DNA of 64,000 nucleotides, from positions 62,001 through 126,000 of the forward strand of contig JAHBVV010000007.1 of the NCBI GenBank assembly GCA_019637335.1. The letters are read 5' to 3'. This DNA comes from Candidatus Hydrogenedentota bacterium (GTDB lineage Bacteria; Hydrogenedentota; Hydrogenedentia; Hydrogenedentales; JAEUWI01). The notes under the pieces are model-generated. The model was not told where the DNA came from. It did not search any database and saw nothing but the letters and a program-made list of their open reading frames with translations. A program made the translations under genes and the position numbers. Positions 3,801 through 21,807 of this stretch are shown here, in pieces (within the stretch, counting starts at the first letter, position 1; each line of letters opens with the position of its first letter).

Positions 3801-6800
3801 ACAAGATGATTCAAATACGGTTCCAAGAATGGTTATTCAGGCCGAGGGCAATGTCGGTATTGGAACGACTGCGCCGGCAAACGCCAAATTACATCTTTCT
3901 GGAACTGGCAGTTATGATGGAACTTTGCGTTTAACCGCAAGTGGCGTTACGGGTGGGACGGACGCATTTATTGTCGCCAGCCAAAACTGGTCAATGGGCG
4001 GAAATAAAATGGGATTTGGCATCGGCGCGCCGGGCTCTAGTAATGTAAAAATGACTATTGACGGAGCGACGGGGAATGTCGGGATTGGAGTACTAAGTCC
4101 TAGCGCCAGCTTGGATGTTGAATCAACCAATATTAATCTGGCGGAATTTCGTGGCAGTACTCAGGCTTCGCATCGTCTTATAGTTTCCGCCACAACAGGT
4201 AATGACGCGCAGATCTCCTTTCAAGAAGACACGGGAACTCGATGGACAATAGGCAATGACGGTAGTGATGGTGATAAGTTCAAAATAGCACCTGCTCTCG
4301 CGGGACCTTTTGCAGGAACGGAAGTGCTGACGATTACATCGGATGGTAATGTCGGTATTGGAACGACAGCACCCAATTACAAAATAGATGTGTGGGATAC
4401 ATTAGCGAATGTACCCACGATTGCTGTTGGGACTACGGCCGATGTTAGCGTGCTATTAGATGATGTTCTTGGTCAATATCTCTTCACGGCAGATGATGAT
4501 TCAGCGGGTTCTCCAAGGCAGGTCTCCGGAGCTATAAGAAGCATTGCGTATGGCAGTGGTGATCCGCCTGTCAGATGGAATGGTGGTGCTCAAAGTGAGA
4601 TGGCCGGTCTAGCCTTCTATTACCTCTACGCGCGAAACGATCTTCGGGAGGCACTACGCATTGACAACCGCGGTAACCTTGGCATAGGGACGACGACACC
4701 ACAATTCCTCTTGTCTGTTGCTGATGCGACTCCACTGGCAAATGAAGTATTGCTGGGCGTTTCTACCGGCGCGGGTGACGTATTCACGGTTGATGAAGAT
4801 GGTGATGTCGTGGTTACCGGGACCATCAGCACGGGACGAAATCAACAACTCCTGTTCAGGACGACCAGTGGTCAGTGGGGACAGATTCATGCCGAGAACA
4901 GCAGGTTGTACCTGGGAGACGCATCAGACGATTCTCAAATTGTGACGATTGACGGTTCTGTGGTCGGTGGGCGGGTTGGCATCGGGACGGCGAGCCCGAG
5001 TGCCAAATTAACTGTCGGCGCGACAAGCGATGCGTCGGATAACGTCGCGCGGGTGTTGGCCGGAGACCTGTACAACGCGGGGTTTGAAGCCTATGGCGCA
5101 AGCCAGGGTACCGGGTACTTATTCGTGGGGCAAAGTTCCACGTATGGCGGAGGCGTTTTCTACAACGGCGACGGCAATCCTGCGTTTGCCACCGGCGAGG
5201 CTGCAGACCAAATCTCGTTCTACCGGATGACCAATTCCGCAAAAGAGGTTGTATTTAGCTATCCGCATAACAGCAATAATGTTACTTTTCGCGGCAATAT
5301 TGATGTCGCGACCCAGATCCTGGGAAACGCTTCGGATAGCGTCTCTGCCCCGTCTTATTCCTGGACGGGCGATACCAACGTTGGCATATTCCGACCCGCG
5401 ACCGATGTCTTGGCAGTCACGACTGCCGGCGTGGAAAGGATGAGGGTAGGTTCAAATGGTTATGTCGGTATCGGCGATACGTCGCCAGTATCGCTGTTAA
5501 CCGTTGGGAATGGCGACAAATTTCAAGTGGACACCAACGGGAATATTGTCAAAATCAACAATATTACTTACTCCTGGCCAGGCTCTCAGGGATCAAGCGG
5601 CCAAGTCCTGACCAATAATGGTTCGGGCACTTTGAGTTGGTCGACGGTCAGCGGTGGTTCAGGCGGCGGCTGGGTGGATGACGGCACAACTGTGCGCCTT
5701 GAGACGGCGAGCGACAGTGTGGCCATAGGCACAGCGACGGCAGTAGCGGGCGCGAAACTTACTGTTAGCGGCAATGCAGCGTTTGCCGCCGGGGCTAATC
5801 GCGAACTCATCGTGGCTGCCGAATCTTCATCTGCTGGCCGCAATTTGACGATCGCCGCAGGCAACACCACCGACGGCATGTCGGGTTACCAGGGAGGCCA
5901 TCTATACCTGATATCGGGAGCGAACACTTCGGGATTCAGTGGGTCGAGCGGGAACATATATATTCGCTCTGCTCGTAGCACTGTGATGGGTAGTGGCTTG
6001 TATCAAAATGTGCTTCTGGCTTATGATGACGCCAACAGCGTCGTGGCTGGTAAGGTCGGCATCGGTACGAATTCCCCAAGTACCTTGTTTCACGTCGCCG
6101 GTGATTCGACGCTTGCGGGGAGTGTGGCAGGCGTTACCAGCTTGACTCTTACCACTGGGGCTGATGGCATCATTTCAGGTGGCGGGCTCAGCAATTCACT
6201 CATTCTTCGAGGCGGGACTAGCGGCGGGACCTACATTTCTGGTGGCTTAATGGGCGGCAACACGATCCTGGCCTACAACAAAGGTGTCGGGGCGGCCGGA
6301 AATGTCGGAGTGGGAACCGATAGCCCAGGTAGCTACCGCCTGAATGTGTCTGGGAGTATGAATGTGACCGGCAACGCCAATCTCGCTGGTTCTGTGACCG
6401 GGCTAACCGGTTTGATACTGGCTAGCGGAGACCATCGCAACATTTCAATTGGGCCGTCTATGTCCGCGTATAATCTTAGGATCTATGGTGGGGGGTTGAT
6501 GGGCTACGGTAATGTTGCGTTGGCGTACAATGGTTCAGCTGTTGCTGGCAAGGTGGCCATTGGCAGTGAAACCGTCGATGCGAATTACATTCTTCAACTG
6601 CCCAACAACGCGTCCTACAAAGCAAAGGCAAACGCTTGGGATACCTATTCGGACACCAGAATTAAACTGGACCAAGAGTTGATCGACTATGGCTTAGAGG
6701 AGCTTTTGGCGTTACAGCCGAAGAAGTACCAGCAATACAGTTCGACTTGGGCGGATGGACAATTGGTCCTTGAGGACGGCATCAGTGCCATTGGCTTAAT

Positions 6801-7926
6801 CGCACAAGATGTGTACGAGATCATCCCCGAAGCGGTGAGTCGGCCCCCTGACGATTCCGAGGCGTTGTGGGCTCTGAACTACGATGCGTTCATTCCCGTG
6901 GTCATTCGCGCTGTGCAAGAGCAACAGGTGCAGATCGAGGGCTTGCGGGTGCAAGCAAGAGCAAGTAATATTGCCGACTCAGACGCGCTTCCTGTTCAAG
7001 AGACCCGCACTTTCTACGGCACCATCTACGTACGAGGCGAAGCCAGCTTTGAACATAAGGTTGTCTTCGAAAGGGATATCGAAGTCAAGGGCAAGATCTA
7101 TGCTTCCTCTGACCAAGTCGGGGAAGTACTCATTTCGGCTGGAGCCACTTCAACTGAGGTTGTTTTTGCCACCCCGTACCGAGTGACGCCACGAGTGGTG
7201 GTGACTCAAAAAGGCGATCATCTGGTGCTCTTCGGTACAAGAAATGTTACAGCCAGCGGATTCAGGGTCCATATCAGCGAGGTTCAACAGCATGATCTGC
7301 AATTCGACTGGATCGCGTTAGCAATGATGGGAGAGGCATCCTCCGCGTCACCTGTGATTGACGAACTCATCACCTCGCTGACGCAGGTAAGTCCGGGCAT
7401 TCCGGTAGAACTGTGGGCGCGGGTGACCGATGCGGATACTCCCGAGTCCGAATTGTCTTATACGTGGACTCTGTCGCCCAAACTCGGCACCATCGACGGA
7501 AGCAGTGGTCTGGTCTACTGGACCGTGCCTGAGAATGCCAAAGTTGACGCGGATGGCACTGAGGTAACCGTGACAGTTCGGGTAAGCGACGGTATCAACA
7601 CCGCCTCAGAATCCGTGAAGGTGAGGGTGGTTGGCGATAGTTCAAATGAATGGGACACGCCGTCAAATGATTCTGCGGAACCATCTACGCCCATCGCCAA
7701 CGACGTTAACACGGACACTCCTACATCATCTCCCGAATTTCCTACCGAACCGCCTTCTGGCGACGGACCCGATGCGATGCCACAGGATGGTGTTCCCTTT
7801 GTTGAAGAAGTGCTCGACGACAGCAAACCGGTATCGACCTCCTCGCCGCCGATTGAGGTCGCCGAATTTCCGGCGACAGAAACCTCCACACCCGAAGTGA
7901 CTGAACCGCTTGCCGACGCGGCGTGA
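859..7926 (+). CDS. Giant membrane-anchored tail-fibre-like surface protein with S74 chaperone domain
   Basis: A 2355-residue protein with one strong membrane segment at about residues 28-55 and the rest probably outside the cell. Residues 65-180 are a domain with NYQGKLTDSNGN, FRFRLYD and LLWTERW, recognisable from large surface proteins of Patescibacteria and other bacteria. The middle is a long beta-rich stalk with at least ten copies of a GNVGIGTTAP-type motif, as in phage tail fibres. At about residues 1925-2050 is a peptidase S74 intramolecular chaperone: YSDTRIKLD supplies the expected Ser and Lys of the self-cleavage dyad, followed by IGLIAQDVYEIIPEAV and NYDAFIPVVI. Unusually, about 300 more residues follow, including an Ig/cadherin-like domain and a Pro/Thr/Ser-rich tail. 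The likely role is attachment to a surface or partner cell; the function is inference. Confidence 0.75.
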   Translation: MPFKHRQPTSLHPWHPAKLFLLTNASRTVAAWVGLTVVLILTLAATLVIGGLVLVPPHLYAAQPGINRQLNYQGKLTDSNGNQAGNGSYAFRFRLYDAPTGGNLLWTERWTSTSTQVTTVNGVFSVTLGAIESLSGVNFDSDSIYLQIHLDADGNGTWEEEFATRKRLTSAPYAFNADTIDGFHATSTAAVANHLLALDSLGNLNVYDRGVSSTRATSTWLYVPGQATINEGRVANLNATTTNVGMLTVYQGSALDGLTIASDLRVGTLNATTTNIGALTVFNGSTLDGLTTISDLRVATLNASTTANFASASLYGDLSVNGTSLFNGLVSGTGFTTAFDNRIASVWRGQANGLASLGADGKVLDSQLSPLAITDTFVVASEAAMLALSGATIGDVAIRTDLSRSYILREADPSVLGNWAELLSPTDSVSSVNGQRGAVTLSTDDITEGLTNFYFTDVRFDDRIASTWRGQANGLASLGADGKIPTSQLGSLPITNTYVVSSEGGMLALAASTGDIAVRTDENKTYVLQGDDPTHSDDWVELLAAASVTSVNGQTGAVTLTTTDILEGSAFYWTQERFDTALASATTWTGDLFVSTGNVGINISNPSEALEVVGNASTTGHVFVGGNLHVGYSNGNDSDAIYFRQGLESLIWNTTNNRFELSNDSYISGNATTSGHFVANDTLYVRDNSVGVATTTWSGDYAMVVQGALYVDHLYTSGESIYMNGQKILENQDNDIVFSADANQNLKIQTSGSGDITLETVSSSANVQLSTLGAVSNIQLSTVGAGSVIQMSSADTITLVAPTINLNGTVNLSLSASQVTSGTLAVERGGTGLSSTPTYGQVLAGNASGGYDLLATSTLKVALSDTTGTLAVDRGGTGKTSFSANQILYGADFSQSANLTFNGTTLGVTGDVTASGNVTVSGVSGGALILSNGLAAAPVNNATPYIYRSGTNTGSYPFNNFGHLVYQPRTTGAFDHVFMGRQDDSNTVPRMVIQAEGNVGIGTTAPANAKLHLSGTGSYDGTLRLTASGVTGGTDAFIVASQNWSMGGNKMGFGIGAPGSSNVKMTIDGATGNVGIGVLSPSASLDVESTNINLAEFRGSTQASHRLIVSATTGNDAQISFQEDTGTRWTIGNDGSDGDKFKIAPALAGPFAGTEVLTITSDGNVGIGTTAPNYKIDVWDTLANVPTIAVGTTADVSVLLDDVLGQYLFTADDDSAGSPRQVSGAIRSIAYGSGDPPVRWNGGAQSEMAGLAFYYLYARNDLREALRIDNRGNLGIGTTTPQFLLSVADATPLANEVLLGVSTGAGDVFTVDEDGDVVVTGTISTGRNQQLLFRTTSGQWGQIHAENSRLYLGDASDDSQIVTIDGSVVGGRVGIGTASPSAKLTVGATSDASDNVARVLAGDLYNAGFEAYGASQGTGYLFVGQSSTYGGGVFYNGDGNPAFATGEAADQISFYRMTNSAKEVVFSYPHNSNNVTFRGNIDVATQILGNASDSVSAPSYSWTGDTNVGIFRPATDVLAVTTAGVERMRVGSNGYVGIGDTSPVSLLTVGNGDKFQVDTNGNIVKINNITYSWPGSQGSSGQVLTNNGSGTLSWSTVSGGSGGGWVDDGTTVRLETASDSVAIGTATAVAGAKLTVSGNAAFAAGANRELIVAAESSSAGRNLTIAAGNTTDGMSGYQGGHLYLISGANTSGFSGSSGNIYIRSARSTVMGSGLYQNVLLAYDDANSVVAGKVGIGTNSPSTLFHVAGDSTLAGSVAGVTSLTLTTGADGIISGGGLSNSLILRGGTSGGTYISGGLMGGNTILAYNKGVGAAGNVGVGTDSPGSYRLNVSGSMNVTGNANLAGSVTGLTGLILASGDHRNISIGPSMSAYNLRIYGGGLMGYGNVALAYNGSAVAGKVAIGSETVDANYILQLPNNASYKAKANAWDTYSDTRIKLDQELIDYGLEELLALQPKKYQQYSSTWADGQLVLEDGISAIGLIAQDVYEIIPEAVSRPPDDSEALWALNYDAFIPVVIRAVQEQQVQIEGLRVQARASNIADSDALPVQETRTFYGTIYVRGEASFEHKVVFERDIEVKGKIYASSDQVGEVLISAGATSTEVVFATPYRVTPRVVVTQKGDHLVLFGTRNVTASGFRVHISEVQQHDLQFDWIALAMMGEASSASPVIDELITSLTQVSPGIPVELWARVTDADTPESELSYTWTLSPKLGTIDGSSGLVYWTVPENAKVDADGTEVTVTVRVSDGINTASESVKVRVVGDSSNEWDTPSNDSAEPSTPIANDVNTDTPTSSPEFPTEPPSGDGPDAMPQDGVPFVEEVLDDSKPVSTSSPPIEVAEFPATETSTPEVTEPLADAA

Positions 7927-7951
7927 GCCGCTGTGACTTCTTAAACATATG

Positions 7952-7979
7952 ACACGACCGATTGACCGGTCGTGTTTTT
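7952..7979 (+). terminator. Rho-independent terminator after the giant surface-protein gene
   Basis: ACACGACCG and CGGTCGTGT pair perfectly (9 bp) around a 6-nt loop and run directly into a T tract. It sits 25 bp after the stop of the giant gene and before the convergent ATPase operon. Confidence 0.85.
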
Positions 7980-8007
7980 GCGTATGAGAGGTACGAATCA
8001 ACAGCCG

Positions 8008-11000
8008 TCACTTCTTGCGTTTGGCCTTGCTCAGCGCGCCCAAGAGCACCTGAGACACGGCCCGTTTGCGGGCCTGCTTTTCTTGTCCGCTTGCGGCACC
8101 GTACTTGACCTTCACCTTGTAGCCCCGAACCGTGTGTTCCCGGCTCGCGGCGTCGGCTTCGATTTCCTCGATGAAGAGGAATAATTCTTCGGGTGACTTG
8201 AAACTCACCCGCTGGCTTTCCTCCGGGGACAGGGCCTCTGCCACCTGACGTTGGACGCTTGCCAGTTTTGCGGGGTCGGTTGAGACCGTGATGACATTGC
8301 CGAACCCGGCGACCAGGCATTTCTTGAGGTTGTCGAGTTCGTGCTCTGGCGAGGTGCTCACTGCGATCTCGCAAGCGATGGACACGTCACCCTTCTCCAA
8401 CGCCACATCAACGCTCGCGCCACCGTCGAGCGTTTTTTCGATAGTCGCGCGGTAGCCCATGCCTTCGGCCCAGCGTTTGATGAACTGCTGCAAGTACTTG
8501 TGTTCCTGTCCGCCCTTGCCCATGAGCGGCGGGGCGGGACTGGCACGACGCGCCGACCGCGTTGGCTTTGTTGCCGGTATTGCGGGTTCGGCGGCAGGCG
8601 CTTGGGGGACCGGCGCTGATGGGACAGCGGGCGTTCGCTGGATTGACTCTTCGACTGCCGGTACTTGCGTGGCGTCATCGGTCTTCACTGGCTGCCACCG
8701 TGCTTCGAGGTAGGCCTCGACCTCGGCAACCGGCGTGCCATACCGCCGTCGCGACAGCGCCGTGATCCGTTCGCGCCGCTGTGCGGCGGCTTCTTTCCGG
8801 ATGCTTGATGGCAGCGGGACCCGCAAATTGAAGTCGCGGTCGGCTCGCTCCAGTCGGCAGATCGCTTCACCGGTCCGCAGGTTGAGCAGGTCGGCGGGTT
8901 CGAAGAAACTTAGACCCTCGGCGAGCTTGCGGGCGTCGGCTTCGCCGACCCGGAAGCAGACGCGGGTATACGGGTTGGATAGCGCGGCGCTGGCGACTTC
9001 GGCGTCGCGCTTCTCCAGCTGTCGCAACTCCTGATGCGCCAGCACGAGGCCCAACCGGTACTTGCGCACGCCGGTGAGAATCGACGCCATCGACGGCGTG
9101 ATGAAGTTGTGGAACTCGTCGATGTATAGATAGAAGGGCCGCCGCTGTTCCTCCTGGATCTCCTGGCGGCTCAAGGTCAATTGGTGGAACTTGGCAACCA
9201 GCAGGGTCCCGAGCAGGTGGGCGTTCTCTTCCCCAATCGCGCCCTGGGAGAGCCGCGCGAGAAAGATCTTGCCGCTGTTCATGATATCGGCGAAGTCCAG
9301 CCGGTTCTCGCGCTGGGCGACCATGTGACGGATTAGTTTTGGGCGCAGAAAGTAGTCCAGTCGCGTGAGAATCGGACCTTGCGGCCGACCAGACAGCAGG
9401 GGGAATTCCTTCTCCCAGTAGTAGACGATATCGCGGTCGCGCACCGTCTTTAGGAACTCGCGGCGGTAGTCTTTCTCCACCAGAAACCGGCGCAGGTCGG
9501 AGAGCGTCCCGCCCCGGTCGCTTTCGAGGAACGCGAGGATGGCGTTGGAAAACACCGTGGTCATCTGGTCGCCCCAACTGGTGGACAGGCGTTGGAAAAC
9601 CGCCACCATGTCGGAAGCGATGAGATTCTTCTCCAATTCCGAGTGCGCCGACAGCACGTTGAAGCCGATGGGATAGCCGCCATCGGCGGGATCGAACAGG
9701 ATCACGTCTTGGTGGCGGTGCTCCGGGATGCGGGTGAGCACGTCGTCAACCAAGTCTCCATGCGGGTCCAGCAGGGCGACCCCCCGGCCCTGCTCGATAT
9801 CCTGGCTGATCAGGTTGAGCAGGAAGGTGGACTTGCCGGTGCCCGACGCGCCCACCGTGTAAATATGTTTGACGCGCTGATCGGCTCGCAACATGACCGG
9901 CAGCGTACTGCCGTTGTGAGTGTTGTGGCCGAGCAGAACCTCGCCTTCAGTCACGCTTGGCGGAGCGGCCTTGCTGCGGTTGATCGCGCGAACCAGCCGA
10001 GCCGCCCGGACCGATGGCGCGGGCAGGTGGCTTAAGCACACCAGTTCGTTCGAGTTGAGGATCATGCCGCTGCGGCAACTCTGGCGCCAGAGCAGGTCGC
10101 GCTCGTGGTACCGGTGGGGGTAATGGTCGTTGTTCAGCGGGATCAGTTCGTTGCTCGATGGGTCGTTGTACTGCGCCAGGCCGCCTCCCAGGTGACGCAC
10201 GATGTCCCAAGCCCGGCCCGGCAGCGGACTGAGCGCCGCTATCCTCAACACCACGGCGTAGAGGGGATGCGCTAGCTTCTCGCGCGCCAGCGTCGTCATC
10301 TCGGGGGCATCGACGAAAAAGCTCCGCCCCCGCCCGTCGGTGACGGAATGGACAATGCTCTCCGCCCAGGGATTCTCGACGGGCTGGAAAAGCACCTGCA
10401 AGACGCCGACTTCACCTGGGTCCAGATGGTCCAATGCGCCGATGATACCAACCAGCGGATCGCTGTCAAAGTTGTGACTGGTACGCAGGGGCCGCATGAA
10501 CTCGGAGGACAGCGCAAAATCCACCACGAGGGATTCGGCCTGCGGCCGGTTTTTCCAGTGGCGCTCCAGGTAGTCGTACTCGTCACAAAGCAGGGCCTCG
10601 GGATAGTGGGCCTTAAGCTGCGCACAGACCTGCTGCGCGTCGGCTTCGCGGCACGCGAATTGGACCACAATCGCCTCGGCGGTGCCGATCACCTCGAAAC
10701 TGATCATGCCCCGGCAATACGCCAAGTTGAGCAGGAGATGCTCGGCCATGTTCTTGGTGATGCCGCATTCCGGCGGCAGGCTGACCTGGATTTCCGCCAC
10801 CGGGAATGGTTCCTGAACATAGGGCAGCAGCAGTTCGGGGGCGAGTGGCAACTCGGCCCTGGACGCGGCGTTGTCCCGCCGCCCGGTCAACTTGTTCGCC
10901 CAACGGCTCAGAAAGGTTTCGCGCTTGCCGTCGTCGAACGGCGCTTCAGGCTGCGGCAGGTAGAAATAGAAGGGGCGGAAGGGCGGTTCAAGCTCGACCG

Positions 11001-11124
11001 GCTGGTCCCAGACCACCCAGCCCCGGCCCTGCCGTTCCCAATCGTAAAACTGGCGGGTGAGTTGCTCGGCGAACGTCAGGCCTGGTCCGCCGTCAGTCCC
11101 GCCAAGTTGGCCGCTGGCATCCAT
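8008..11124 (-). CDS. TraG/HerA-superfamily DNA-translocating ATPase with C-terminal nuclease-like domain
   Basis: A 1038-residue protein. The first 400 residues are a conserved but unnamed region. A P-loop VGASGTGKST lies near residue 426, followed by LLDPHGDLVDDVL, typical of the type IV secretion coupling/HerA-like ATPases that bind DNA at a cell pole or membrane. Walker B is YIDEFHNF near residue 665, followed by the AHQELRQL region of the TraM-recognition-type family. Residues about 870-985, after a Pro/Ala linker, contain VDVALEKG and CEIAVS, spaced like the D...ExK core of a PD-(D/E)XK fold; this domain call is tentative. It is the last gene of a minus-strand operon, 6 bp after the membrane-protein gene. 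The probable role is pumping and processing DNA for transfer or element maintenance. Confidence 0.72.
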   Translation of the reverse strand: MDASGQLGGTDGGPGLTFAEQLTRQFYDWERQGRGWVVWDQPVELEPPFRPFYFYLPQPEAPFDDGKRETFLSRWANKLTGRRDNAASRAELPLAPELLLPYVQEPFPVAEIQVSLPPECGITKNMAEHLLLNLAYCRGMISFEVIGTAEAIVVQFACREADAQQVCAQLKAHYPEALLCDEYDYLERHWKNRPQAESLVVDFALSSEFMRPLRTSHNFDSDPLVGIIGALDHLDPGEVGVLQVLFQPVENPWAESIVHSVTDGRGRSFFVDAPEMTTLAREKLAHPLYAVVLRIAALSPLPGRAWDIVRHLGGGLAQYNDPSSNELIPLNNDHYPHRYHERDLLWRQSCRSGMILNSNELVCLSHLPAPSVRAARLVRAINRSKAAPPSVTEGEVLLGHNTHNGSTLPVMLRADQRVKHIYTVGASGTGKSTFLLNLISQDIEQGRGVALLDPHGDLVDDVLTRIPEHRHQDVILFDPADGGYPIGFNVLSAHSELEKNLIASDMVAVFQRLSTSWGDQMTTVFSNAILAFLESDRGGTLSDLRRFLVEKDYRREFLKTVRDRDIVYYWEKEFPLLSGRPQGPILTRLDYFLRPKLIRHMVAQRENRLDFADIMNSGKIFLARLSQGAIGEENAHLLGTLLVAKFHQLTLSRQEIQEEQRRPFYLYIDEFHNFITPSMASILTGVRKYRLGLVLAHQELRQLEKRDAEVASAALSNPYTRVCFRVGEADARKLAEGLSFFEPADLLNLRTGEAICRLERADRDFNLRVPLPSSIRKEAAAQRRERITALSRRRYGTPVAEVEAYLEARWQPVKTDDATQVPAVEESIQRTPAVPSAPVPQAPAAEPAIPATKPTRSARRASPAPPLMGKGGQEHKYLQQFIKRWAEGMGYRATIEKTLDGGASVDVALEKGDVSIACEIAVSTSPEHELDNLKKCLVAGFGNVITVSTDPAKLASVQRQVAEALSPEESQRVSFKSPEELFLFIEEIEADAASREHTVRGYKVKVKYGAASGQEKQARKRAVSQVLLGALSKAKRKK

Positions 11125-11130
11125 TACTCA

Positions 11131-11634
11131 TCACCGTTGGAAGAAGTCGCGCATGATCGGTTTGCGTTCGGCCTCGGACAACGTTCGCAAGCCCTTGGCC
11201 TTGGTGATGTCGTCGAGGACCTCCATCACGGCGGCATGGACGCTCTGCTGGAACATGTACGCCGTGTCCAGCTTGAAATAGGTCCAGGGCCGTACAAACA
11301 ACAGCGTGAACTGTCTGACAACCGGTACGGCTAACAGGAATGCCAGGCAGCCGGAGGGCAGTTCGGTCAGCCACCAGGAGAAGAAGAAGGCGTTGCCAAA
11401 CGGCGCGCCGCAGACATCGAACATCAGCTTCTTACGCCAGACGCGCAAGTAGAGCCGCTTGGCCGACAGCAGGCCGCCCTCCTTGATTTCGACGCGCGAC
11501 ACCTTGAGATCCGGAATCTGACGGCTCGCGATGGCCTGTTCCAGCGCGGTGTAGAAGTCCTGCGTCGAGTACTGCATGCCTTCGACCAGATGATCCCAGT
11601 GGGAAATGACAGACGATTCAACAGCAACGGACAT
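11131..11634 (-). CDS. Small membrane protein between two TraG/HerA-type ATPases
   Basis: I do not recognise a named family. The start at 11634 (protein MSVAVESS...) is chosen because AAGGAGG lies about 10 nt upstream; an upstream in-frame ATG at 11715 lacks this. The 167-residue product has an amphipathic N-terminal domain and then hydrophobic stretches around FFFSWWLTEL and GCLAFLLAVPVV (residues about 75-110), so it is probably a membrane protein. It is sandwiched in the same operon between two DNA-pump ATPases, which suggests that it anchors them or forms part of a channel. That role rests only on position. Confidence 0.6.
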   Translation of the reverse strand: MSVAVESSVISHWDHLVEGMQYSTQDFYTALEQAIASRQIPDLKVSRVEIKEGGLLSAKRLYLRVWRKKLMFDVCGAPFGNAFFFSWWLTELPSGCLAFLLAVPVVRQFTLLFVRPWTYFKLDTAYMFQQSVHAAVMEVLDDITKAKGLRTLSEAERKPIMRDFFQR

Positions 11635-11739
11635 GAGTCGTATCCTCCTTCCTGCCCAAGCGCAGTTTTTACAGCTTGAGTTTATGATTCCGGCCCTGTC
11701 AAATGCAATCCGCACTATGATAGTGGGCGCGGCTTGGGA

Positions 11740-12933
11740 CTAATTCTTTGGCGCAAGCGCTTCGGGTGGAACCGTCTCGGCGCTGAAGGGTGCGGAGACC
11801 GTGCCGTCGATCATCAGCTTGAGGTAGATGTGGTGGTTGGCGAGGTTGGTGATGTCGGTCGCCGTGAAGTACGGGTAGAACTCCTGGGCGAAGCTTTCGG
11901 CGTCCGTCGCGCCCAGGCGAAAGACAATCGGGGTGCCGACGTTGCCCAGGATCGCCTCCTTGACCAGCGGGTCAAGCTGCGCCAGGTACTGGTGGGCCAG
12001 CACCATCCCGATCCGGTACTTGCGCAGTTCGGAAAGCATCGTCACCGAAGACAGCGACGTGAAGGTCTGGAACTCGTCGATGTAGACGAAGAAGTCGCGG
12101 CGTTGTGCGGGCGGTAGGTCGGCCCGGCTCAGGGCGGCCATGTTCAGACGCGAGACGAGCAGCGAGCCGAGTAGCGATGCGGTCTCTTCGCCGATGCGGC
12201 CCTTGCTCAGGTTCACCAGGAGAATACCGCCGGTGTCCATGATCTCGCGCAGCCGGATGCGGTTCTGGGGCGCGGTCAGGATCTCGTGCAGGATCGGGTC
12301 GGTCAGGCAGGCCCCCACCTTGTTTTGCACCGGCGCTACCGCTTCGGCTCGCAACCTGGCGGTATAGCCCTCGAACTCTTCGAGCCAGAAACGCCGGACC
12401 TCCGCATTGCCTGAGACGTTCGCGCACGCCTTGCGGTACTTCGCGTCGCCCAAGAGCCGCAGGATGTCAGCCAGCGTCGCGTCACGCTGCTCCAACAGCA
12501 GGAACACGGCATTTCGCAGGATGTGTTCGAGTCGCGGTCCCCACGAGTCGGCCCAGAGCCGCTTAAAGGATTCCATCAGTCCGGCCGCGGCCAGACCGCG
12601 CCGGGACGCCGACACATACTCCAGCGGATTGAAGCCGAGCTTGTCGGCGTTGTCGGGCACGTTGAAGTAGGTCACGCGGCCCGCGTGGGCATCGGGAATG
12701 AAGTCGCGGACTTGGGACACGAGTTCGCCGTGGGGGTCGATCAGCACCACGCCGCGCCCGGCCTCGATGTCCTGCTTGATGAGCGTGGCCATCAGCGTGG
12801 ACTTCCCCACGCCGGTCTTCCCGATCAAATACAAATGATGCAGCCGGTCGGGTTGCTTGATACCAAAAAGCGCGCGCTGGCCCCGAAAGGTCGTGCGCGC
12901 GAAGAGGCTGATGGCGTGCGGATCATGGGTCAT
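11740..12933 (-). CDS. TraG/VirB4-like conjugation-type ATPase
   Basis: A 397-residue ATPase. FRGQRALFGIK near the N-terminus, a P-loop IGKTGVGKST at about residue 39, LIDPHGELV after it, and a Walker B YIDEFQTF near residue 279 place it among the TraM-recognition/type IV coupling-type ATPases found in integrative elements and Patescibacteria. It lacks the N-terminal and C-terminal extensions of its operon partner at 8008-11124, so it is close to a bare motor domain. It is first in the minus-strand operon and diverges from the SWIM-protein gene across 156 bp. It probably works with the larger ATPase as a hetero-motor; this is inference. Confidence 0.75.
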   Translation of the reverse strand: MTHDPHAISLFARTTFRGQRALFGIKQPDRLHHLYLIGKTGVGKSTLMATLIKQDIEAGRGVVLIDPHGELVSQVRDFIPDAHAGRVTYFNVPDNADKLGFNPLEYVSASRRGLAAAGLMESFKRLWADSWGPRLEHILRNAVFLLLEQRDATLADILRLLGDAKYRKACANVSGNAEVRRFWLEEFEGYTARLRAEAVAPVQNKVGACLTDPILHEILTAPQNRIRLREIMDTGGILLVNLSKGRIGEETASLLGSLLVSRLNMAALSRADLPPAQRRDFFVYIDEFQTFTSLSSVTMLSELRKYRIGMVLAHQYLAQLDPLVKEAILGNVGTPIVFRLGATDAESFAQEFYPYFTATDITNLANHHIYLKLMIDGTVSAPFSAETVPPEALAPKN

Positions 12934-13089
12934 CTATTCACTGTCCCATGACGCGCTTTATGCAACAAGTCACCCGGTGACGCCATCCCCGACACTTTCG
13001 AGCGTCTGGCGGGTTTCTGCCGGTGTCCTACCCTGGGAAGTAGTTCTTTGTCTCTTTGAACCACAACCCAAACCAGGAGGAATCCAGAC

Positions 13090-13974
13090 ATGCAAGCAAC
13101 AGCCAGAAGTGTCGAAGACCCAAATGCCGAGGCCGCCGCGCTGATGGTGGTCAAACCCGACGAGGACGGATTTCAGGTCTATGAACCTGCCGCCCCGGAT
13201 CGAGTCTACCGCGTCAGTGGCACCCGCCAGCAACCGGAATGCACCTGCGCCAAGTTCCGCTGGACGGATCCGGGCAACCCAAACCGGCCCTGCGTCCACA
13301 TCGACGCGGTGCTGCGCCATCTTGGCGGAAACGACTCGCCGCCACAGCCCCTCACCGTCGATCCCGACCCCGTGTCGCTCGGCAACCCCGACGAAACGCC
13401 GGTCGCTGACGGGAACGGGAACGGAGCCGCGCTTGGCGGATCGCCCGCCCTGCTGACCCTGAAACGCAGCGTCAGCCCGGACGGACGGATCGATTCGCTC
13501 TCGGTGGAGTTCGCCCTGCCCATCGCGGGACTCAAGGCCCACGAAGTTCACGACTTCGCGCTTCGCAGCCTCGCCTGCCAGGAAGACATCGCCCGTTCGT
13601 TCCTGAACGGTGGACCACCGGCCAGCGACGGCGGCAACGGCCACAGCCAGAGCGGTGGCGGCAATGGCAACCAGGGCGGCAACGGTGCGGTTCCGGCCAC
13701 CCTGCGCGATGTCGGCGGCATGCAGACCAAGTGGGGCTGGCGTTACTTCATCAACGTCGAAGCCGACGGCGGCGTCTACAAGCTCTTCGGCAACCGCAAG
13801 CAGCTTGCCGAACACCTGGCCGACGCCGGACATCCCCGGCTGGGCGACCAACTCAGCAAGGGCAAGACGCTGAACGTGTCGTGCTTGGCGCTGCTCGAAG
13901 ACAGCGAGGATGGCCGTTACACCAACGTCGTCGAACTCAGGCCTGCCAACCGGCAGCAGTCGGCCCGGAGGTAG
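13090..13974 (+). CDS. SWIM zinc-finger protein, probably nucleic-acid binding
   Basis: A 294-residue protein with AGGAGG about 9 nt before its ATG. A SWIM-type zinc site is visible as C51-x-C53 ... C68-x-H70. Residues 105-150 are acidic and glycine-rich. Residues about 120-175 and 205-290 form two further conserved-looking segments joined by a Gly/Asn/Ser linker (residues 178-198). SWIM domains bind DNA or protein partners. The gene lies 4 bp before an iron-sulphur-type nuclease gene, so the two are probably translated together and act on the same substrate. The exact role is unknown. Confidence 0.6.
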   Translation: MQATARSVEDPNAEAAALMVVKPDEDGFQVYEPAAPDRVYRVSGTRQQPECTCAKFRWTDPGNPNRPCVHIDAVLRHLGGNDSPPQPLTVDPDPVSLGNPDETPVADGNGNGAALGGSPALLTLKRSVSPDGRIDSLSVEFALPIAGLKAHEVHDFALRSLACQEDIARSFLNGGPPASDGGNGHSQSGGGNGNQGGNGAVPATLRDVGGMQTKWGWRYFINVEADGGVYKLFGNRKQLAEHLADAGHPRLGDQLSKGKTLNVSCLALLEDSEDGRYTNVVELRPANRQQSARR

Positions 13975-13978
13975 CGTC

Positions 13979-14785
13979 ATGTCTCAGGCAACCGCCCTGC
14001 GTATCCAGGCATGCGCCGACGCGAAGCGAAGCGGGCACCTGTCCTATTCGCGCGTCAACCGCTACCTGGTCTGCCCCGAACAGTACCGTCTGTACTACGT
14101 CGAGGGTTTGCGGCCGAAAGTCCCGTCAGCCAGCCTGGAATTCGGCCAAACCATCCACCGCGCCTTGGCGCGGTTCTTCCAGGACGGTGAGAGCGCCATC
14201 GAGGTGTTCCTCACCACTTGGGAGCAATGTCGCGACCGACCGCTGCGCTATTCCTACCGCGAGAGTTGGGAGAAGCTCAACGAACGCGGACACGCCCTGC
14301 TGGCGAAGTTCTTGCTCGAAGAACTGCCGCGCCTGAGTTGCGTGGAGGCGTCCGAGAAGCCGTTTGAATTGGCGGTCTCGAACCTCGATCTGCCCTTTGT
14401 CGGCGTCATCGACCTCAAGGCACGGATTGACGGGGTCTTGAGCGTCATCGACTTCAAGACCAGCGGCTCGGCCTACCAGGAGTTTGAAGTCGAACTGTCC
14501 GACCAACTCACCGCCTACCGTCTGGCCGAACCGCAGGCCGCCCAGAGCGCGCTCTGCGTCTTCGTCAAGACCAAGGAGCCGCGCATCGAATGGTTCTTTT
14601 CCCAACGCACCGGTGACGAACTCACCGCGTACCTTGCCAAGGTCGCGCTGATCGGCCGCCAGGTTGCCGACGAGGTGTTCTACAAACGCCCCGGCAAATG
14701 GTGTGCCCAGTGCGACTACCTGCCCCTCTGTATGGGCGACAAGAAGCGAGCCGAGGAAACCCTTGTGGCTATCGACCTCGACTAG
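13979..14785 (+). CDS. RecB/Cas4/AddB-like PD-(D/E)XK nuclease with four-cysteine cluster
   Basis: A 268-residue protein. The start at 13979 is chosen because GGAGG lies just upstream, overlapping the end of the SWIM gene; a longer frame from 13910 would overlap that gene by 65 bp. Motifs: SYSRVNRYLVCP at the N-terminus, GQTIHRALARFF (the conserved His region), GVIDLKARID and VIDFKTS (the D...DxK active site), then QLTAYRLA. Cys32 and Cys243, Cys246 and Cys252 have the spacing of the [4Fe-4S] cluster in Cas4 and AddB nucleases. It should cut or resect single-stranded or end-containing DNA. There are no cas1/cas2 genes or CRISPR arrays here, so it is not Cas4 in the adaptation sense. Confidence 0.8.
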   Translation: MSQATALRIQACADAKRSGHLSYSRVNRYLVCPEQYRLYYVEGLRPKVPSASLEFGQTIHRALARFFQDGESAIEVFLTTWEQCRDRPLRYSYRESWEKLNERGHALLAKFLLEELPRLSCVEASEKPFELAVSNLDLPFVGVIDLKARIDGVLSVIDFKTSGSAYQEFEVELSDQLTAYRLAEPQAAQSALCVFVKTKEPRIEWFFSQRTGDELTAYLAKVALIGRQVADEVFYKRPGKWCAQCDYLPLCMGDKKRAEETLVAIDLD

Positions 14786-14791
14786 CAATCT

Positions 14792-14824
14792 GCCAGCACC
14801 GGCATCCACCCGTGCTGGCTTTTT
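14792..14824 (+). terminator. Rho-independent terminator after the nuclease gene
   Basis: GCCAGCAC (14792-14799) pairs with GTGCTGGC (14812-14819), followed by five T residues. It starts 6 bp after the nuclease stop codon and separates this module from the qat operon. Confidence 0.88.
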
Positions 14825-15028
14825 CATATCCAATGCACAGCGGGCCAGCCTTGGGCGTACTATACTAGCTGGCGTTTGGTCTCGCGGGCGCGTATGATGG
14901 TGACTCATGTCGAGTTGGCTCGTCTCGCCCTATTCTCCTGCGAGCACACGCCAATGCTCTCGGTTCACCTTGAGCGGTCGCCTCTTCTGGCTTGGCCGAC
15001 GTTGTCGGTTCACTGGGGTAGTGGTACG

Positions 15029-17026
15029 ATGGAAGATATGAAACAAGTGACCATGTGGTCGGACAACGAAACCACCATCGACCTTATCGGCTACGATCAC
15101 CTCATCGGAGCGGTTACCGCGATCGTGAAAAACGACGCGCTCCTGCCAGCCTCGGTGGGCGTCTTCGGCGACTGGGGAAGCGGGAAGTCGAGCGTCCTGC
15201 GGATGGTCGAGGCCGACCTGAAGCGTGATGAGAAGACGCTGGTCCTGCACTTCAACGGCTGGCTGTTCGAGGACTATGAGGATGCGAAGTCCGCACTCCT
15301 GGGAACGCTCCTCGACGGCATCGGATCGCACACGAAACTGGGCGAGAAGGCAAAGGATGTCCTCTGTAAGTTGTTGCGTCGTCTGGACTACATGAAACTG
15401 GCAGGCGGTGCGGCCAGGTTTGGTGTCTCGGCCGCCCTTGGCGGGCTACCGGTAGCGGCACTGCTTGCGGGAGCGTCGGTCAAGGACCTGATAGTTCGCG
15501 TCGGCGCGGCGATCAAGGACGGCGACACGTCGGTCCTGCAGGGGCTGCTCAAGGATGTTGACGAGGAGACACGAGTCGGCGTCCGCGAGTTTAGGCGTGA
15601 CTTTCAGGAACTGTTGGAGAAGACCGCTATCGAGCGGTTGGTGGTTCTCATTGACGATCTTGATCGCTGTCTACCCGATACCGTCATCGAGACGCTGGAA
15701 GCGATCAAACTCTTCGTGTTTGTCCCGCGAACCGCTTTTGTCATCGCTGCCGACGAGCGACTAATCGAATATGCGGTTCGGAAGCGCTTCCCCGAGTTGC
15801 CCGGCGACAAGGCGGAGGTCGGACGGGATTATCTGGAGAAGCTGATCCAATATCCGGTGCGTATCCCGCCCCTCGGACGGTCGGAGCTCGAAACGTATAT
15901 CAACGTTCTTTTTGCTTCCGCAGCCGGGCTTTCTGACGAACAACTCACCAGCGTAAGAGATCGTGTGACCAGGTGTGACGAGCGGTCTCTTCTCGGGGTG
16001 CGCTTCAACACCGGTATCGCAAGGGAGTTGATCGATCCGCTGCCCAAGCGGCTTCAGGATGACCTTGCCTTCTCGGAGCAGATAGCTCCCACGTTGGCTG
16101 CCGGTACCGCTGGCCTCAACGGGAACCCCCGGCAGTGCAAACGATTCCTAAACACGCTCGTCCTCAGGTTAGAAATGGCGCAGGCCCGAGGGATCACGCT
16201 GCGGCGTGAGGTCCTTGCGAAACTCATGCTACTGGAGTGGTTCGCCCCCATCACCTTCAAGGCTCTGGCACAGGCATCCACGGAACAGGATGGCGATTGC
16301 ACGGAGCTAAAGGTTGCCGAAAGGCAATACTCGCAGTCGGACAACCTGAAGTCGCAGCACCAACCCCTCGCTTCGCCCCGGACCCCGGCGGACGGGACCG
16401 ACGGTTCAGGAAAGAAGGGTAGTGAGTCGGCCAGTCTTGGTGACGCTGTCGAACCGGAGCCTCCCGAATGGCTCTCCGACGCCTGGGTTTGCGAGTGGCT
16501 CGCGCTCGCTCCGGGACTCACCGGTGTTGACTTGCGTCCCTACTTCTTCTTCTCCCGTGACACGCTGGGCACTCTTGGGGTGGCTGTGCAACGTCTCAGT
16601 CCGGCGGCCCAGGAGGTCTTGTCGGAGTTGTTCAGCGACAGCGAGGCGCAACGCAATCTGGCGCTGGACAAGACCGCCCGGCTTACGCAATCCGAAGTCT
16701 CAAGCCTGTTCAACGCCCTCGCGGAACGGTCCCGACGCGAAGCGGACCCCGGAGACGAACGTTCGGCGATGTTCCGCCTATGTGATCTGGCTACACGACA
16801 CGCCTACGTCGCCGCACCCCTCATCGCCTTCCTTGCCGCCGTACCCGACCTCCGCATACCCCTCGCGGTCGTGTCCAAAATCCGCGCCCTGTCTGCGACG
16901 CCGGAGACACAATCGACAGTCCTCGAATTGCTTACCCGGTGGTCACAAAGCTCTGGTAACTCCCGTCTGGCCGCTGCGGCTAGGAGCGCACTCCAGCGGC
17001 GTACCGGGGGTGGAGGTAGATCCTGA
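15029..17026 (+). CDS. qatA: QatA, KAP-family P-loop NTPase of the Qat anti-phage system
   Basis: A KAP-family ATPase and first gene of a four-gene qat operon. From the ATG at 15029 it has 665 residues. FGDWGSGKSS near residue 48 is the Walker A site; VVLIDDLDRC near residue 209 is Walker B with the KAP-type LDR. Between them is a hydrophobic stretch (about 130-160, LGGLPVAALLAGAS), the insertion typical of KAP NTPases that contact the membrane. The start is uncertain: the frame is open back to 14876, but the text before 15029 does not look conserved, and GGAAG lies just ahead of a third candidate ATG at 15038. The stop overlaps the qatB start. Qat protects against phages by a mechanism not yet settled. 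Confidence 0.85.
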   Translation: MEDMKQVTMWSDNETTIDLIGYDHLIGAVTAIVKNDALLPASVGVFGDWGSGKSSVLRMVEADLKRDEKTLVLHFNGWLFEDYEDAKSALLGTLLDGIGSHTKLGEKAKDVLCKLLRRLDYMKLAGGAARFGVSAALGGLPVAALLAGASVKDLIVRVGAAIKDGDTSVLQGLLKDVDEETRVGVREFRRDFQELLEKTAIERLVVLIDDLDRCLPDTVIETLEAIKLFVFVPRTAFVIAADERLIEYAVRKRFPELPGDKAEVGRDYLEKLIQYPVRIPPLGRSELETYINVLFASAAGLSDEQLTSVRDRVTRCDERSLLGVRFNTGIARELIDPLPKRLQDDLAFSEQIAPTLAAGTAGLNGNPRQCKRFLNTLVLRLEMAQARGITLRREVLAKLMLLEWFAPITFKALAQASTEQDGDCTELKVAERQYSQSDNLKSQHQPLASPRTPADGTDGSGKKGSESASLGDAVEPEPPEWLSDAWVCEWLALAPGLTGVDLRPYFFFSRDTLGTLGVAVQRLSPAAQEVLSELFSDSEAQRNLALDKTARLTQSEVSSLFNALAERSRREADPGDERSAMFRLCDLATRHAYVAAPLIAFLAAVPDLRIPLAVVSKIRALSATPETQSTVLELLTRWSQSSGNSRLAAAARSALQRRTGGGGRS

Positions 17027-17874
17027 TGGGTACCTCCGCCTCCAATCCAGGTCGAGGGGATCGTCCCGCCCTTCTCCCAGCCTGGGCACTGCCTGCCCAG
17101 AGCCCTGATGCTCCACCCAACCCGCCCGCAGACCCCAACCAACTGCCTCAGCAGCCGACCCCGCAACAGGTACTAGCGCCACCGGCTCCGAACAGGGGCC
17201 CGTGGCGGGACGCCGGATCGCGCATGGGGAGGTGGGCGTCGGGAGACGCCGGTGGTCGTGCGGGACTGTCGCGTGCGGGACGTGGATTCGTTCGGGCGCT
17301 TGGCGGCTCGCGACAAGCGAGTCGCTCCAGTTCGGGCAGTCGGGCTGCCGCCGCAAGATTCGCCGGCTTCGTATCGGGCATTCAAGGCGCGGGGCTACGG
17401 GAATCGCTTCGTCGGTTGGGTCTGGAGCGCCTCGTGGGCGGCGATCCCCATGTGGCATTCGCAGCCATCGCCGACGCCCTGTGTCCCGAAGGTGCGACTG
17501 CGGACGAAGCCATCGCGCGGGCGGCCATCGTCGACGCCTTGGCGGTCTTGTGGGCCTCGTACGTCGAAGACACAGGGGACCTCACCAGGCTTGAGAATCT
17601 GGACGCTCCGGCGGTCCAGGAGTCGATTCGAACGGCCGTTGTCTCTCACGTGTACCGACGCTGGCTGTTCGAGTTGGGCAAACGGCTGGAGTCGAAAGCG
17701 GTGAGTGCCGAAGAGGCCGCGCGGCTGGAACGTGATATGAAACGATATCTGGATGAGGAAATCAGAATCGATTTCGGCGACCAAGATCTCACACGGGTCG
17801 AGTGGGATGCACATGATGGTCAGTCATATATCGAGGACCTGTTCCGCAGGGCCTATGAGATCTTGGAGTCCTGA
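17026..17874 (+). CDS. qatB: QatB, second component of the Qat system
   Basis: A 282-residue protein whose ATG at 17026 shares a base with the qatA stop codon, so it is translationally coupled. The first 65 residues are rich in Pro, Ala and Gln and look disordered. Residues about 70-110 are basic, Gly/Arg/Ser-rich. The rest is helical with an acidic C-terminus. It has no catalytic motif that I recognise. The assignment rests on length and on its place between a KAP ATPase and a QueC-like gene, the canonical qatABCD order. Confidence 0.8.
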   Translation: MGTSASNPGRGDRPALLPAWALPAQSPDAPPNPPADPNQLPQQPTPQQVLAPPAPNRGPWRDAGSRMGRWASGDAGGRAGLSRAGRGFVRALGGSRQASRSSSGSRAAAARFAGFVSGIQGAGLRESLRRLGLERLVGGDPHVAFAAIADALCPEGATADEAIARAAIVDALAVLWASYVEDTGDLTRLENLDAPAVQESIRTAVVSHVYRRWLFELGKRLESKAVSAEEAARLERDMKRYLDEEIRIDFGDQDLTRVEWDAHDGQSYIEDLFRRAYEILES

Positions 17875-17875
17875 T

Positions 17876-19210
17876 ATGGAATGGAACATCATTATCCACA
17901 CACCCGAGACCGATGGATATGTCCCGTCACTTACGTCAGGTCTCCCGCGCCTCGATCTTGCCATTGGGCGTTCCTCTCGTTTTCCGGAAATCGAGGCGAA
18001 TCTCGGTCGGTTCGAGACTTCGCAACACCGGTCCTTCGCACCGATCGTCAAGGACCTGCTGCGGGTCGCCCTGGCGACCTACGCTGCCGATCAGGTGGTC
18101 CTGCGTCGGTACGGGGAAGACCGGTGGACGCGCGAGATCCGGTTGCACGTGCCGGTATCCGACCCGGCCGCCTGGCAGGCGTGCGGAGAAGAATTTTCTC
18201 GCGCTGCCGGATTTCTCACCGGCGACCGCTGGCGGTTCGAGTTCCGACGACTTCCTGTCGCGCATACCCGCCCGAACGAACAGGCCGGACCCGCCGCGGA
18301 ATCACTGGTTGTCCTGTTCTCCGGCGGACTTGATTCACTGATCGGCGCCATCGATCTACTTGAAATCGGCCAAGCGGTCTCGCTCGTGTCCCACCACGGC
18401 GCGGGCATCACCCGCTCGGTGCAGCAACGCCTCGTCGAAGCCTTGTGCGCCCGATATGGCGGGCGAGTGCAGGAGTTGCCGTTCTGGGTGCAGCCACCCC
18501 GCATTCAGGGCAGCCAACACGAAACCACGCTGCGCTCAAGATCGCTGCTCTTCCTCGCACTTGGTACTGCGGTTGCGTTTACGCTGAACCCATCCAGACC
18601 ACTGCATGTCGCCGAAAACGGATTGATCTCGCTCAACGTCCCACTCACCGGCGCACGCCTGGGCAGCCTGAGCACACGGACCACCCACCCGCACTTCATC
18701 CAACTCTTTCGGGAGATCCTCCAGAAGCTTGCCATTGGCACCGACGTGGTGTTGCCGTACCGATTCAAGACGAAGGGAGAGATGCTCGCCGGTGCTGCCA
18801 ACCAGGAGTGTGCGCGGGCACTGACGCCACTCACGATGTCCTGCGCCCACCCGGAAGCGCAACGCTACACGTTCCGCAGTGTCGACCGTCACTGCGGGTA
18901 TTGTGTACCGTGTCTCATCCGCCGTGCCGCAACCACGGCGGCCGACTTCCAAGACGCGGCGTACTGTCTGGATGCCCGTCGCGACGCGCCGCCGGCTCAC
19001 ACCGGACGGGGAAAGGATCTACGGGCGGTCCTCATGGCCATCGCACGCTTTCAGGACTCGCAGCTCATGGCGGCAGCTGATGTCCTCACCACGGGGCCGA
19101 TTCCACATCATGAAATCCAACAGTATGCCGAAGTCTACCGGCGGGGAATGTCGGAACTCCGAGCCTACCTCCGTCCACAACATGCGCCTACATCCATCCA
19201 ACGACTATGA
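17876..19210 (+). CDS. qatC: QatC, QueC-like ATP-pyrophosphatase-fold protein of the Qat system
   Basis: A 444-residue protein. The start at 17876 is 2 bp after the qatB stop; a longer frame from 17753 would overlap qatB by about 120 bp. LFSGGLDSLIG near residues 146-156 is the PP-loop signature shared with QueC, the 7-cyano-7-deazaguanine synthase. Near the C-terminus, HCGYCVPCLIRR (Cys340, Cys343, Cys346) plus an upstream Cys matches the QueC zinc site. The N-terminal 140 residues have no counterpart in QueC. It may modify a base, nucleotide or protein during anti-phage defence; the reaction is not established. Confidence 0.87.
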   Translation: MEWNIIIHTPETDGYVPSLTSGLPRLDLAIGRSSRFPEIEANLGRFETSQHRSFAPIVKDLLRVALATYAADQVVLRRYGEDRWTREIRLHVPVSDPAAWQACGEEFSRAAGFLTGDRWRFEFRRLPVAHTRPNEQAGPAAESLVVLFSGGLDSLIGAIDLLEIGQAVSLVSHHGAGITRSVQQRLVEALCARYGGRVQELPFWVQPPRIQGSQHETTLRSRSLLFLALGTAVAFTLNPSRPLHVAENGLISLNVPLTGARLGSLSTRTTHPHFIQLFREILQKLAIGTDVVLPYRFKTKGEMLAGAANQECARALTPLTMSCAHPEAQRYTFRSVDRHCGYCVPCLIRRAATTAADFQDAAYCLDARRDAPPAHTGRGKDLRAVLMAIARFQDSQLMAAADVLTTGPIPHHEIQQYAEVYRRGMSELRAYLRPQHAPTSIQRL

Positions 19211-19944
19211 CCATGCGATTCGTCGATACCCATTGCCACGTTGACCTTTACCCGTCCCCGGAAACGGTTGTCCACACGGCAGCCGCCAATGGGGTTGAAG
19301 TCATTGCGGTGACAAACGCCCCGCACGTCTTTCATTTCACCAGGGAACTGGCCCGGCACCATCCGCACCTCTACCCGGCGGTCGGACTCCACCCGGAGCT
19401 GGTGGCCGACTACGGCCACCTGCTTGCCGAACTCCTGAAGCACCTCGATCAGGCACGTTTCATCGGTGAGGTCGGTCTTGACTACGTCACCACGGATGAC
19501 AGGCTCCGGCAGCGACAGCGTTCGGTGTTTGAGAGTGTTATCGAGCGATGCGCCCGGTCCGACTCGGTCGTGAGTATACATTCGCGACGCGCCGTTGCTG
19601 ATGTCCTGGCCATCGTCGGAGATAGTTTCCCAGGCTCGTGTATCCTTCACTGGTTTTCCGGAAGTCCGTCGCAGCTACGTCGGGCGCTTGATGCCGGCTT
19701 CCACTTCTCGGTGAACCCGACCATGGTCATCTCGGAGCGAGGCCGCTCGCTCGTCGCCCAGATCCCGCGCGAGAGGGTGTTGACGGAGAGTGACGGGCCG
19801 TTCGCCAAGTTCAACGGAAGACCGGCTACCCCAGCCGATATGCTGTCTGTTGTGAAAGCCATCGCGAACATCTGGAAGGTGCCCGTCGAGCAGGCGGCAG
19901 GCGAGATTTACGGCAATTTCACAGGGCTACTGGCCAATCGGTAG
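19207..19944 (+). CDS. qatD: QatD, TatD-like metal-dependent hydrolase of the Qat system
   Basis: A 245-residue TatD-family TIM-barrel hydrolase. The metal ligands are visible: His9-x-His11 in FVDTHCHVDL, Glu88 in GEVGLDY, His125 in SIHSRR, His148 in ILHWFSGS and Asp196 in TESDGPF. The length is close to stand-alone TatD DNases. Its ATG overlaps the qatC stop in an ATGA arrangement. In Qat it is the predicted nuclease effector. No convincing terminator follows; only a 6-bp stem without a T tract is seen near 19,960. Confidence 0.88.
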   Translation: MTMRFVDTHCHVDLYPSPETVVHTAAANGVEVIAVTNAPHVFHFTRELARHHPHLYPAVGLHPELVADYGHLLAELLKHLDQARFIGEVGLDYVTTDDRLRQRQRSVFESVIERCARSDSVVSIHSRRAVADVLAIVGDSFPGSCILHWFSGSPSQLRRALDAGFHFSVNPTMVISERGRSLVAQIPRERVLTESDGPFAKFNGRPATPADMLSVVKAIANIWKVPVEQAAGEIYGNFTGLLANR

Positions 19945-21727: not shown

Positions 21728-21807
21728 ATTGGCTAACAACGTGCGCTTCAAGCGTGAACAAAAAGTCTGCAAAGCAGAAGGAGCGGTAGCGAAGGGAGAC
21801 TGCCATC

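Follow-up and report, generated by a model that had tools for sequence, protein, structure and literature searches.

A predicted VirB4/VirD4-like ATPase core carried by a serine-integrase defence island in comM

The 64,000-nt window analysed here (G000:C7:62001-126000, within a 7.16-Mb Candidatus Hydrogenedentota assembly) contains five adjacent genes, encoding a large ATPase (bigATP), a small partner (memb), a compact ATPase (smallATP), a SWIM zinc-finger protein and a Cas4/AddB-like nuclease. Do these form one machine, and does it move DNA or defend against it? A preliminary description had placed them in two divergent operons and proposed a self-contained five-part machine for transfer or defence. 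The layout is correct, with all five open reading frames (ORFs) present and coding by ORF and Pfam checks (Table 1), and there is support for a core that processes DNA, located beside a large serine recombinase (LSR) in a mobile element that is apparently not a prophage. The five-part machine is not: the constant set is bigATP and memb, usually with smallATP, plus the LSR. Comparison of related loci shows that bigATP, memb and, nearly always, smallATP travel with the LSR across many phyla while the cargo changes.

The element in comM and its constant genes

The element occupies G000:C7:32796-90410 (57,614 bp) and interrupts the host comM, a Mg-chelatase-like gene, whose 3' part lies 57.6 kb away from its 5' part, at C7:32320-32808 (L004:10320-10808). 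The LSR abuts the right junction, the only sequence common to both junctions is the dinucleotide TG, a 2-bp core, and removal of the element in silico leaves an empty site at which comM is rejoined in frame (..VVAMNP to CPCGCRTDP..), as expected of an LSR integrative element. Integration by the LSR is well supported, the crossover falling on a conserved TG within the MNP-CPCG codons of comM, which is left disrupted. The split comM is 83-87% identical to those of two congeners, and is therefore the native copy. The element also holds two tandem further LSRs to the left of the window and two RuvC-like genes. No capsid, portal or terminase genes were seen among the proteins scanned, just a Peptidase_S74 tail-fibre chaperone domain (859-7926). 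The preliminary description was right about the five genes here, but overlooked both the comM junction at 28409 and a complete QatABCD system directly to their right.

Several other features of comM were seen in passing. A second, intact comM (a 615-aa ORF) lies within the element on the minus strand (L004:15298-17145; G000:C7:37298-39145); it is just 66-68% identical to the native disrupted gene, so it is probably a foreign copy, and could restore ComM function. The LSR gene overruns the crossover by ~26 bp (28411-28436), finishing in antisense sequence of comM, and the C-terminus that it encodes may therefore differ between the integrated and the circular form. An ORF next to the LSR (l1) that was considered as an extra backbone gene is actually antisense of comM. 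In a same-genus genome (G035:C1:135095-146821) comM is also split, near residue 250 and with the pieces 10.5 kb apart, by another element type using this gene. An Eisenbacteria metagenome-assembled genome (G296, C53:65532-75889 and C1:78289-84949) has several copies of the comM 3' end in arrays, which suggests repeated or tandem insertions at one site.

Both comM halves were found around an element in seven further genomes and the elements read end to end, giving eight complete comM elements in eight genomes with the window's included. Lengths are ~36-43 kb, against 57.6 kb here, apart from a Mucilaginibacter copy of ~55 kb whose comM is cut a second time. All eight N-side junctions end ATGAAYCCNTG, and all seven of the C-side junctions inspected start TGYCCNTGYGG. 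Around the TG, the sequences contributed by the two ends of the element are arranged as an inverted repeat (for example, AAAAGGCAACGCA..TG..ACGTTGCGTTGCCTTTT), as would be expected for the attP of a serine integrase. comM is intact in roughly half of the genomes that were checked, so the element family uses other sites as well.

The LSR, bigATP and memb are each present in all eight complete elements, and a close homologue of smallATP, of the same subfamily, in seven; smallATP homologues in related elements are 42-60% identical. In the Saprospiraceae element a coupling protein only distantly related to it (27% identical) occurs instead, with a MOBP relaxase within the comM interval. RuvC-like genes are found in seven of the eight (RuvC Pfam 1.8e-17), while no further non-comM family occurs in more than four. 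Three Bacteroidetes elements have ArdC, and some copies have RadC and genes that are SSB-like (single-stranded DNA-binding protein) by sequence.

On a wider scale, the bigATP profile identified 37 loci in 84,980 species genomes, plus two in viral contigs; a 38th match (L087) was weak and considered stray. Most are from metagenome assemblies, and they include Acidobacteria, Bacteroidetes, Verrucomicrobia, Eisenbacteria, BRC1, a Desulforudis and Patescibacteria. memb accompanies bigATP in 34 of the compared loci, directly upstream; most of those without it are cut off by a contig end or are a decayed copy. The LSR cluster is represented by a recombinase in 25 loci. The window's LSR has 47-62% identical counterparts in 16 related loci, and its family was also found in 13 of 16 bigATP genomes checked separately. 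Among 291 sampled genomes, bigATP is in three, the LSR in three and both in two. Pairwise divergence of bigATP correlates with that of the LSR (r 0.80), memb (0.71) and smallATP (0.89; Mantel p 0.0001 for these), as does that of smallATP with the LSR (r 0.81, Mantel p <= 0.0002). Since the three core genes recur with the same integrase across many phyla, they look like the element's own DNA-moving machinery.

The full set of five has a much narrower distribution. A BRC1 genome (G227), which a broad search with memb identified, carries the five genes in an unchanged order and at 37-61% identity; its LSR adjoins bigATP directly, and its nuclease is 56% identical to the window's. The co-occurrence of all five families proposed earlier holds in just three loci, however, since SWIM and nuclease genes are found only in the window, in BRC1 (L057) and in L056. 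The five genes were rejected as one conserved unit on these grounds, and these two are best considered optional. Conservation of gene order near a large serine recombinase, which had been suggested as a further check, did hold in the compared loci and complete elements.

In several loci smallATP adjoins a second, internal serine recombinase (L005:9014-13122, L064, L069, L077, L096), and on a Sulfitobacter plasmid it is found with a serine recombinase but not adjacent to bigATP; LSR and smallATP are possibly a separable unit. Homologues on plasmids of Sulfitobacter, Embleya, Bradyrhizobium and Bacillus were set aside as having only the ATPase in common. VirD4-like genes from the host phylum (L026-L036) were also rejected as the same element: they are single large ATPases with ~25-30% identity along their length and belong to another operon. 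In L026, L027, L028, L029 and L031 this is a conserved operon of one VirB4/VirD4-like ATPase with an archaeo-eukaryotic primase (AEP) and a Lon-like protein, in some cases with kinase and anaerobic ribonucleotide reductase (NrdD-type) genes. Scans of viral contigs with SWIM and with smallATP as single queries gave no matches.

Predicted structures and the role of the core

The bigATP model (AlphaFold2 with 30 homologues; mean predicted local distance difference test, pLDDT, 81) places its motor nearest to TrwB (VIA Z 26.4), then VirB4 (Z 25.1) and DndH (Z 24.0). Residues 104-790 align with R388 TrwK/VirB4, so the N-terminal region is considered VirB4-like; a long-range root-mean-square deviation of ~10 A indicates domain rearrangement. 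The nuclease-like tail of the preliminary description is borne out: residues 870-995 have a predicted PD-(D/E)XK topology (helix 872-888; strands 892-898, 904-911 and 914-920; helix 926-938; strand 943-947), in which E896, D906, E919 and K935 are identical in 30 of 30 homologues. The usual ExK lysine is substituted, with the invariant K935 in the next helix instead. By predicted fold, bigATP is thus VirB4-like with an extra PD-(D/E)XK tail, which may cut DNA, and smallATP, which is without a transmembrane or N-terminal domain, is TrwB/VirD4-like.

The "membrane protein" of the preliminary description is only partly upheld. A small protein does lie between the ATPases, but its hydrophobic stretch (94-115) has a clear counterpart in just 20 of 28 homologues, and membrane attachment is likely but not universal. 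Its model (pLDDT 87) has no convincing fold relative; its helix-grip/KA1/START-like matches score no better (best Z 8.8) than unrelated folds do, so no function was drawn from them, and matches to a GPCR (G protein-coupled receptor) were considered noise from the hydrophobic segment.

Pfam and fold matches thus identify both a VirB4-type and a VirD4-type ATPase, as in an integrative and conjugative element. The comparison of elements shows the core genes to be the backbone of the comM element. The best explanation, which we favour with moderate confidence, is that its ATPases serve as a reduced type IV secretion-like motor for transfer, a role that we infer. Such a pump would fit the combination of VirB4-like and VirD4-like ATPases, a membrane-prone adaptor, an element that crosses phyla, and ArdC, SSB-like and RadC genes. 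The element would first excise to a circle; memb would hold bigATP at the membrane or organise it; and bigATP with smallATP would pump element DNA out of the donor, or couple it to a pore. The PD-(D/E)XK tail and RuvC-like protein would process DNA in place of a relaxase, the SWIM protein and Cas4-like nuclease would be optional aids in processing its ends, and where relatives have ArdC, RadC and SSB these would help to protect the DNA on entry.

Several points weigh against transfer. MOBP, MOBQ and MOBF relaxases were not found in seven of the eight elements (MOBV, MOBT, MOBH and Replic_Relax were not searched), and five of the eight host genomes have none of these three families anywhere. 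The window's host is among those without them, in keeping with the earlier statement that no relaxase is present, PF03432, PF03389 and PF08751 being absent from its whole genome (other MOB classes were not searched); the bigATP tail or the RuvC-like protein may fill this role. No VirB6/8/9/10-like channel or pilus gene recurs in the complete elements or is among the best 25 of 74 Pfam families. DndH is almost as close to the bigATP motor as the conjugation ATPases are, and HerA (Z 20.4) also resembles it; both serve in defence or repair. The top PADLOC match of both ATPases is MADS mad8, with a mad8-like hit at 2.9e-18, although no other mad gene is among the ten window proteins scanned with PADLOC, so this is not classed as a MADS system. 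Co-diversification could stem in part from host ancestry, and excision, the circular form and transfer are predictions.

Defence is the main rival to transfer. The two ATPases, memb and the nucleases might be an anti-phage or anti-plasmid system, a DNA pump and nuclease of HerA/DndH/MADS type, kept as long-standing cargo of a defence island. The likenesses to DndH, HerA and mad8 would then be expected, as would the nuclease-like tail and the nearby Qat, Druantia and Thoeris-like genes. It is a possible reading but a rather doubtful one: the core is in all eight complete elements while the defence cargo changes, it co-diversifies with the integrase, and no other gene of HerA/DndH/MADS-like systems recurs with it. 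In the plasmid collection, moreover, all bigATP matches are less than 60% identical and none covers 80% of the protein. The element's defence functions lie in the neighbouring cargo. Of the earlier "transfer or defence", the constant backbone and its co-diversification with the LSR favour transfer or element maintenance.

Maintenance without transfer is the less likely of these. The core might act within the cell, in excision, circle segregation or copy control (for example, as a translocase stripping proteins or resolving junctions for the LSR), with the element spreading by transformation or hitch-hiking. The tight coupling to LSRs, including the second, internal one often beside smallATP in Bacteroidetes, would suit this, as would the RuvC-like and RadC genes, the lack of recognised channel genes and the choice of a transformation gene as target; but serine integrases are not known to require an ATPase, and the VirB4-type N-terminal region and ArdC indicate secretion or transfer. 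Integrative and mobilizable elements (IMEs) move by means of a relaxase, in some cases together with a coupling protein of their own, and leftover coupling proteins could let a degenerate or mobilizable island use a resident conjugation system in this way, as the MOBP relaxase of the Saprospiraceae element might suggest; this is very improbable given the relaxase results for the other seven elements and five whole host genomes, the intact core ORFs and the invariant Walker motifs.

If the secretion-like motor is accepted, a broader and more tentative proposal is that these are widespread relaxase-free integrative elements with a VirB4-like ATPase bearing a nuclease fold, a VirD4-like ATPase and one small adaptor, and so a new minimal mode of DNA transfer. 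On arrival such an element would disrupt comM, a natural-transformation helicase gene, and deliver interchangeable anti-phage systems between very distant bacteria, the window's copy even carrying an intact foreign comM along.

Cargo and accessory genes

The window's QatABCD, a known anti-phage system, is complete and in order (14876-19944). Left of the window are a Druantia-like cluster (L003:39-9468), with DruD, an 1850-aa DruE1, a DruK-like PD-(D/E)XK gene and a large upstream ORF, and, at L003:17437-19237, a TIR (ThsB-like) protein, a caspase-like protease and a small third ORF without family match; the TIR/caspase pair has the look of a Thoeris variant in which the effector is a caspase. 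Cargo varies between elements, and defence matches of restriction-modification, CBASS and reverse-transcriptase type are frequent in it. In BRC1 the slot to the right of the nuclease, filled by Qat in the window, instead has four genes, among them a GP88 and a kinase-methyltransferase gene.

Both accessory proteins agree with their first description. The SWIM motif CxC..CxH (C51-x-C53..C68-x-H70) is kept in a homologue, whose Pfam SWIM match (0.0011) is just short of the family cut-off. The nuclease, with homology beginning at ~13946, has one upstream cysteine (..VCPEQ..) and three downstream (WCAQCDYLPLC). An antisense ORF at 12970-13980(-) was taken as spurious, with no family match above cut-off. 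At 859-7926 is a 2355-aa protein with a Peptidase_S74 chaperone domain, weak H-lectin/PKD matches and low GC (54%), which looks like large surface-protein cargo.

Table 1. Features of the element and its surroundings, in window coordinates
Feature	Position	Strand	Basis or remark
Element portion inside window	1..28410	.	Element continues 29 kb left of window
bigATP, 1038 aa: predicted VirB4-like N-terminal region, RecA-like motor, PD-(D/E)XK-like tail	8008..11124	-	TrwB_AAD_bind 1.2e-12 (Pfam)
memb, 167 aa, probably membrane-attached, helix-grip-like predicted fold	11131..11634	-	Adjoins bigATP; AlphaFold2; hydrophobicity
smallATP, 397 aa, TrwB/VirD4-like motor	11740..12933	-	TrwB/VirD4 DNA-binding family 1.6e-12 (Pfam)
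SWIM zinc-finger protein, optional accessory	13090..13974	+	Conserved motif; Pfam SWIM in homologue
Cas4/AddB-like PD-(D/E)XK nuclease, four-Cys pattern, optional accessory	13910..14785	+	PDDEXK_1 4.1e-26 (Pfam)
QatA, cargo, homology from ~residue 60	14876..17026	+	PADLOC QatA 2.4e-146; NF041923 551.9 bits vs cut-off 600
QatB, cargo	17026..17874	+	NF041924 above cut-off
QatC, cargo, true start further right (homology from residue 95)	17753..19210	+	NF041925 above cut-off
QatD, TatD-family nuclease, cargo	19207..19944	+	NF041926 above cut-off
LSR, integrase of element	26913..28436	+	Resolvase and Recombinase domains; PHROG integrase 8.2e-115
Right junction, TG crossover dinucleotide in comM MNP-CPCG codons	28409..28410	-	Left counterpart G000:C7:32796
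Host comM 5' part, cut at ..VVAMNP	28411..29562	-	Mg_chelatase 1.6e-71

Comparison with known systems

The carriers that move defence genes between distant bacteria are often unknown; here the ends of one carrier family are located exactly and its integrase is defined, its motor core of three genes is conserved, and its defence cargo is interchangeable. Its attachment (att) sites are defined well enough for direct testing of the integrase, and Limnovirga soli KCS-6 and Lacibacter luteus TTM-7 are testable candidate strains for a relaxase-free DNA transfer route.

As a target, comM is already known for LSRs, Tn7-like elements and elements with tyrosine recombinases (Tsy). In the available text of the survey by Durrant et al. 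(PMC10083194), 12.4% of predicted site-specific LSRs target the magnesium chelatase gene family, and targets are not enriched within or near defence genes. Those LSRs likewise insert in a magnesium chelatase gene; the survey concerns recombinases, and that text does not describe an element with a VirB4/VirD4 core. Nor did a literature search, with most subscription journals and all bioRxiv preprints outside its reach, find an account of one in comM, of this element family or of its motor core. Tn6022/AbaR-like Tn7 and Tsy transposons (PMC10293859) share the comM site, the split comM and the carriage of cargo, but use a Tn7 transposase or tyrosine recombinases and TnsF, where this element uses a serine recombinase and a TG core at the NP-CPCG codons.

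With the VirB4 and VirD4 (TrwK/TrwB) motors of conjugation the core shares two RecA-like motors, one VirB4-like N-terminally and the other TrwB-like. It differs in having no relaxase of the three main families and no recognised channel genes, in a smallATP without membrane domain, and in the nuclease-like tail of bigATP. Actinomycete integrative and conjugative elements (AICEs) are similar as integrative elements that move by a minimal ATPase-based apparatus. Theirs is the FtsK-like TraB (PMC3218068); here the ATPases are two and of a different family, with a serine recombinase into comM and a range of many phyla. HerA-NurA, SIR2-HerA, DndH and MADS mad8 have the same HerA-VirD4 type of translocase fold with nuclease domains, but their other genes do not recur here, and this core is embedded in, and co-diversifies with, an integrase backbone. 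Overall, the element can be described as a mobile defence island that integrates by a serine recombinase and is unusual in its motor core.

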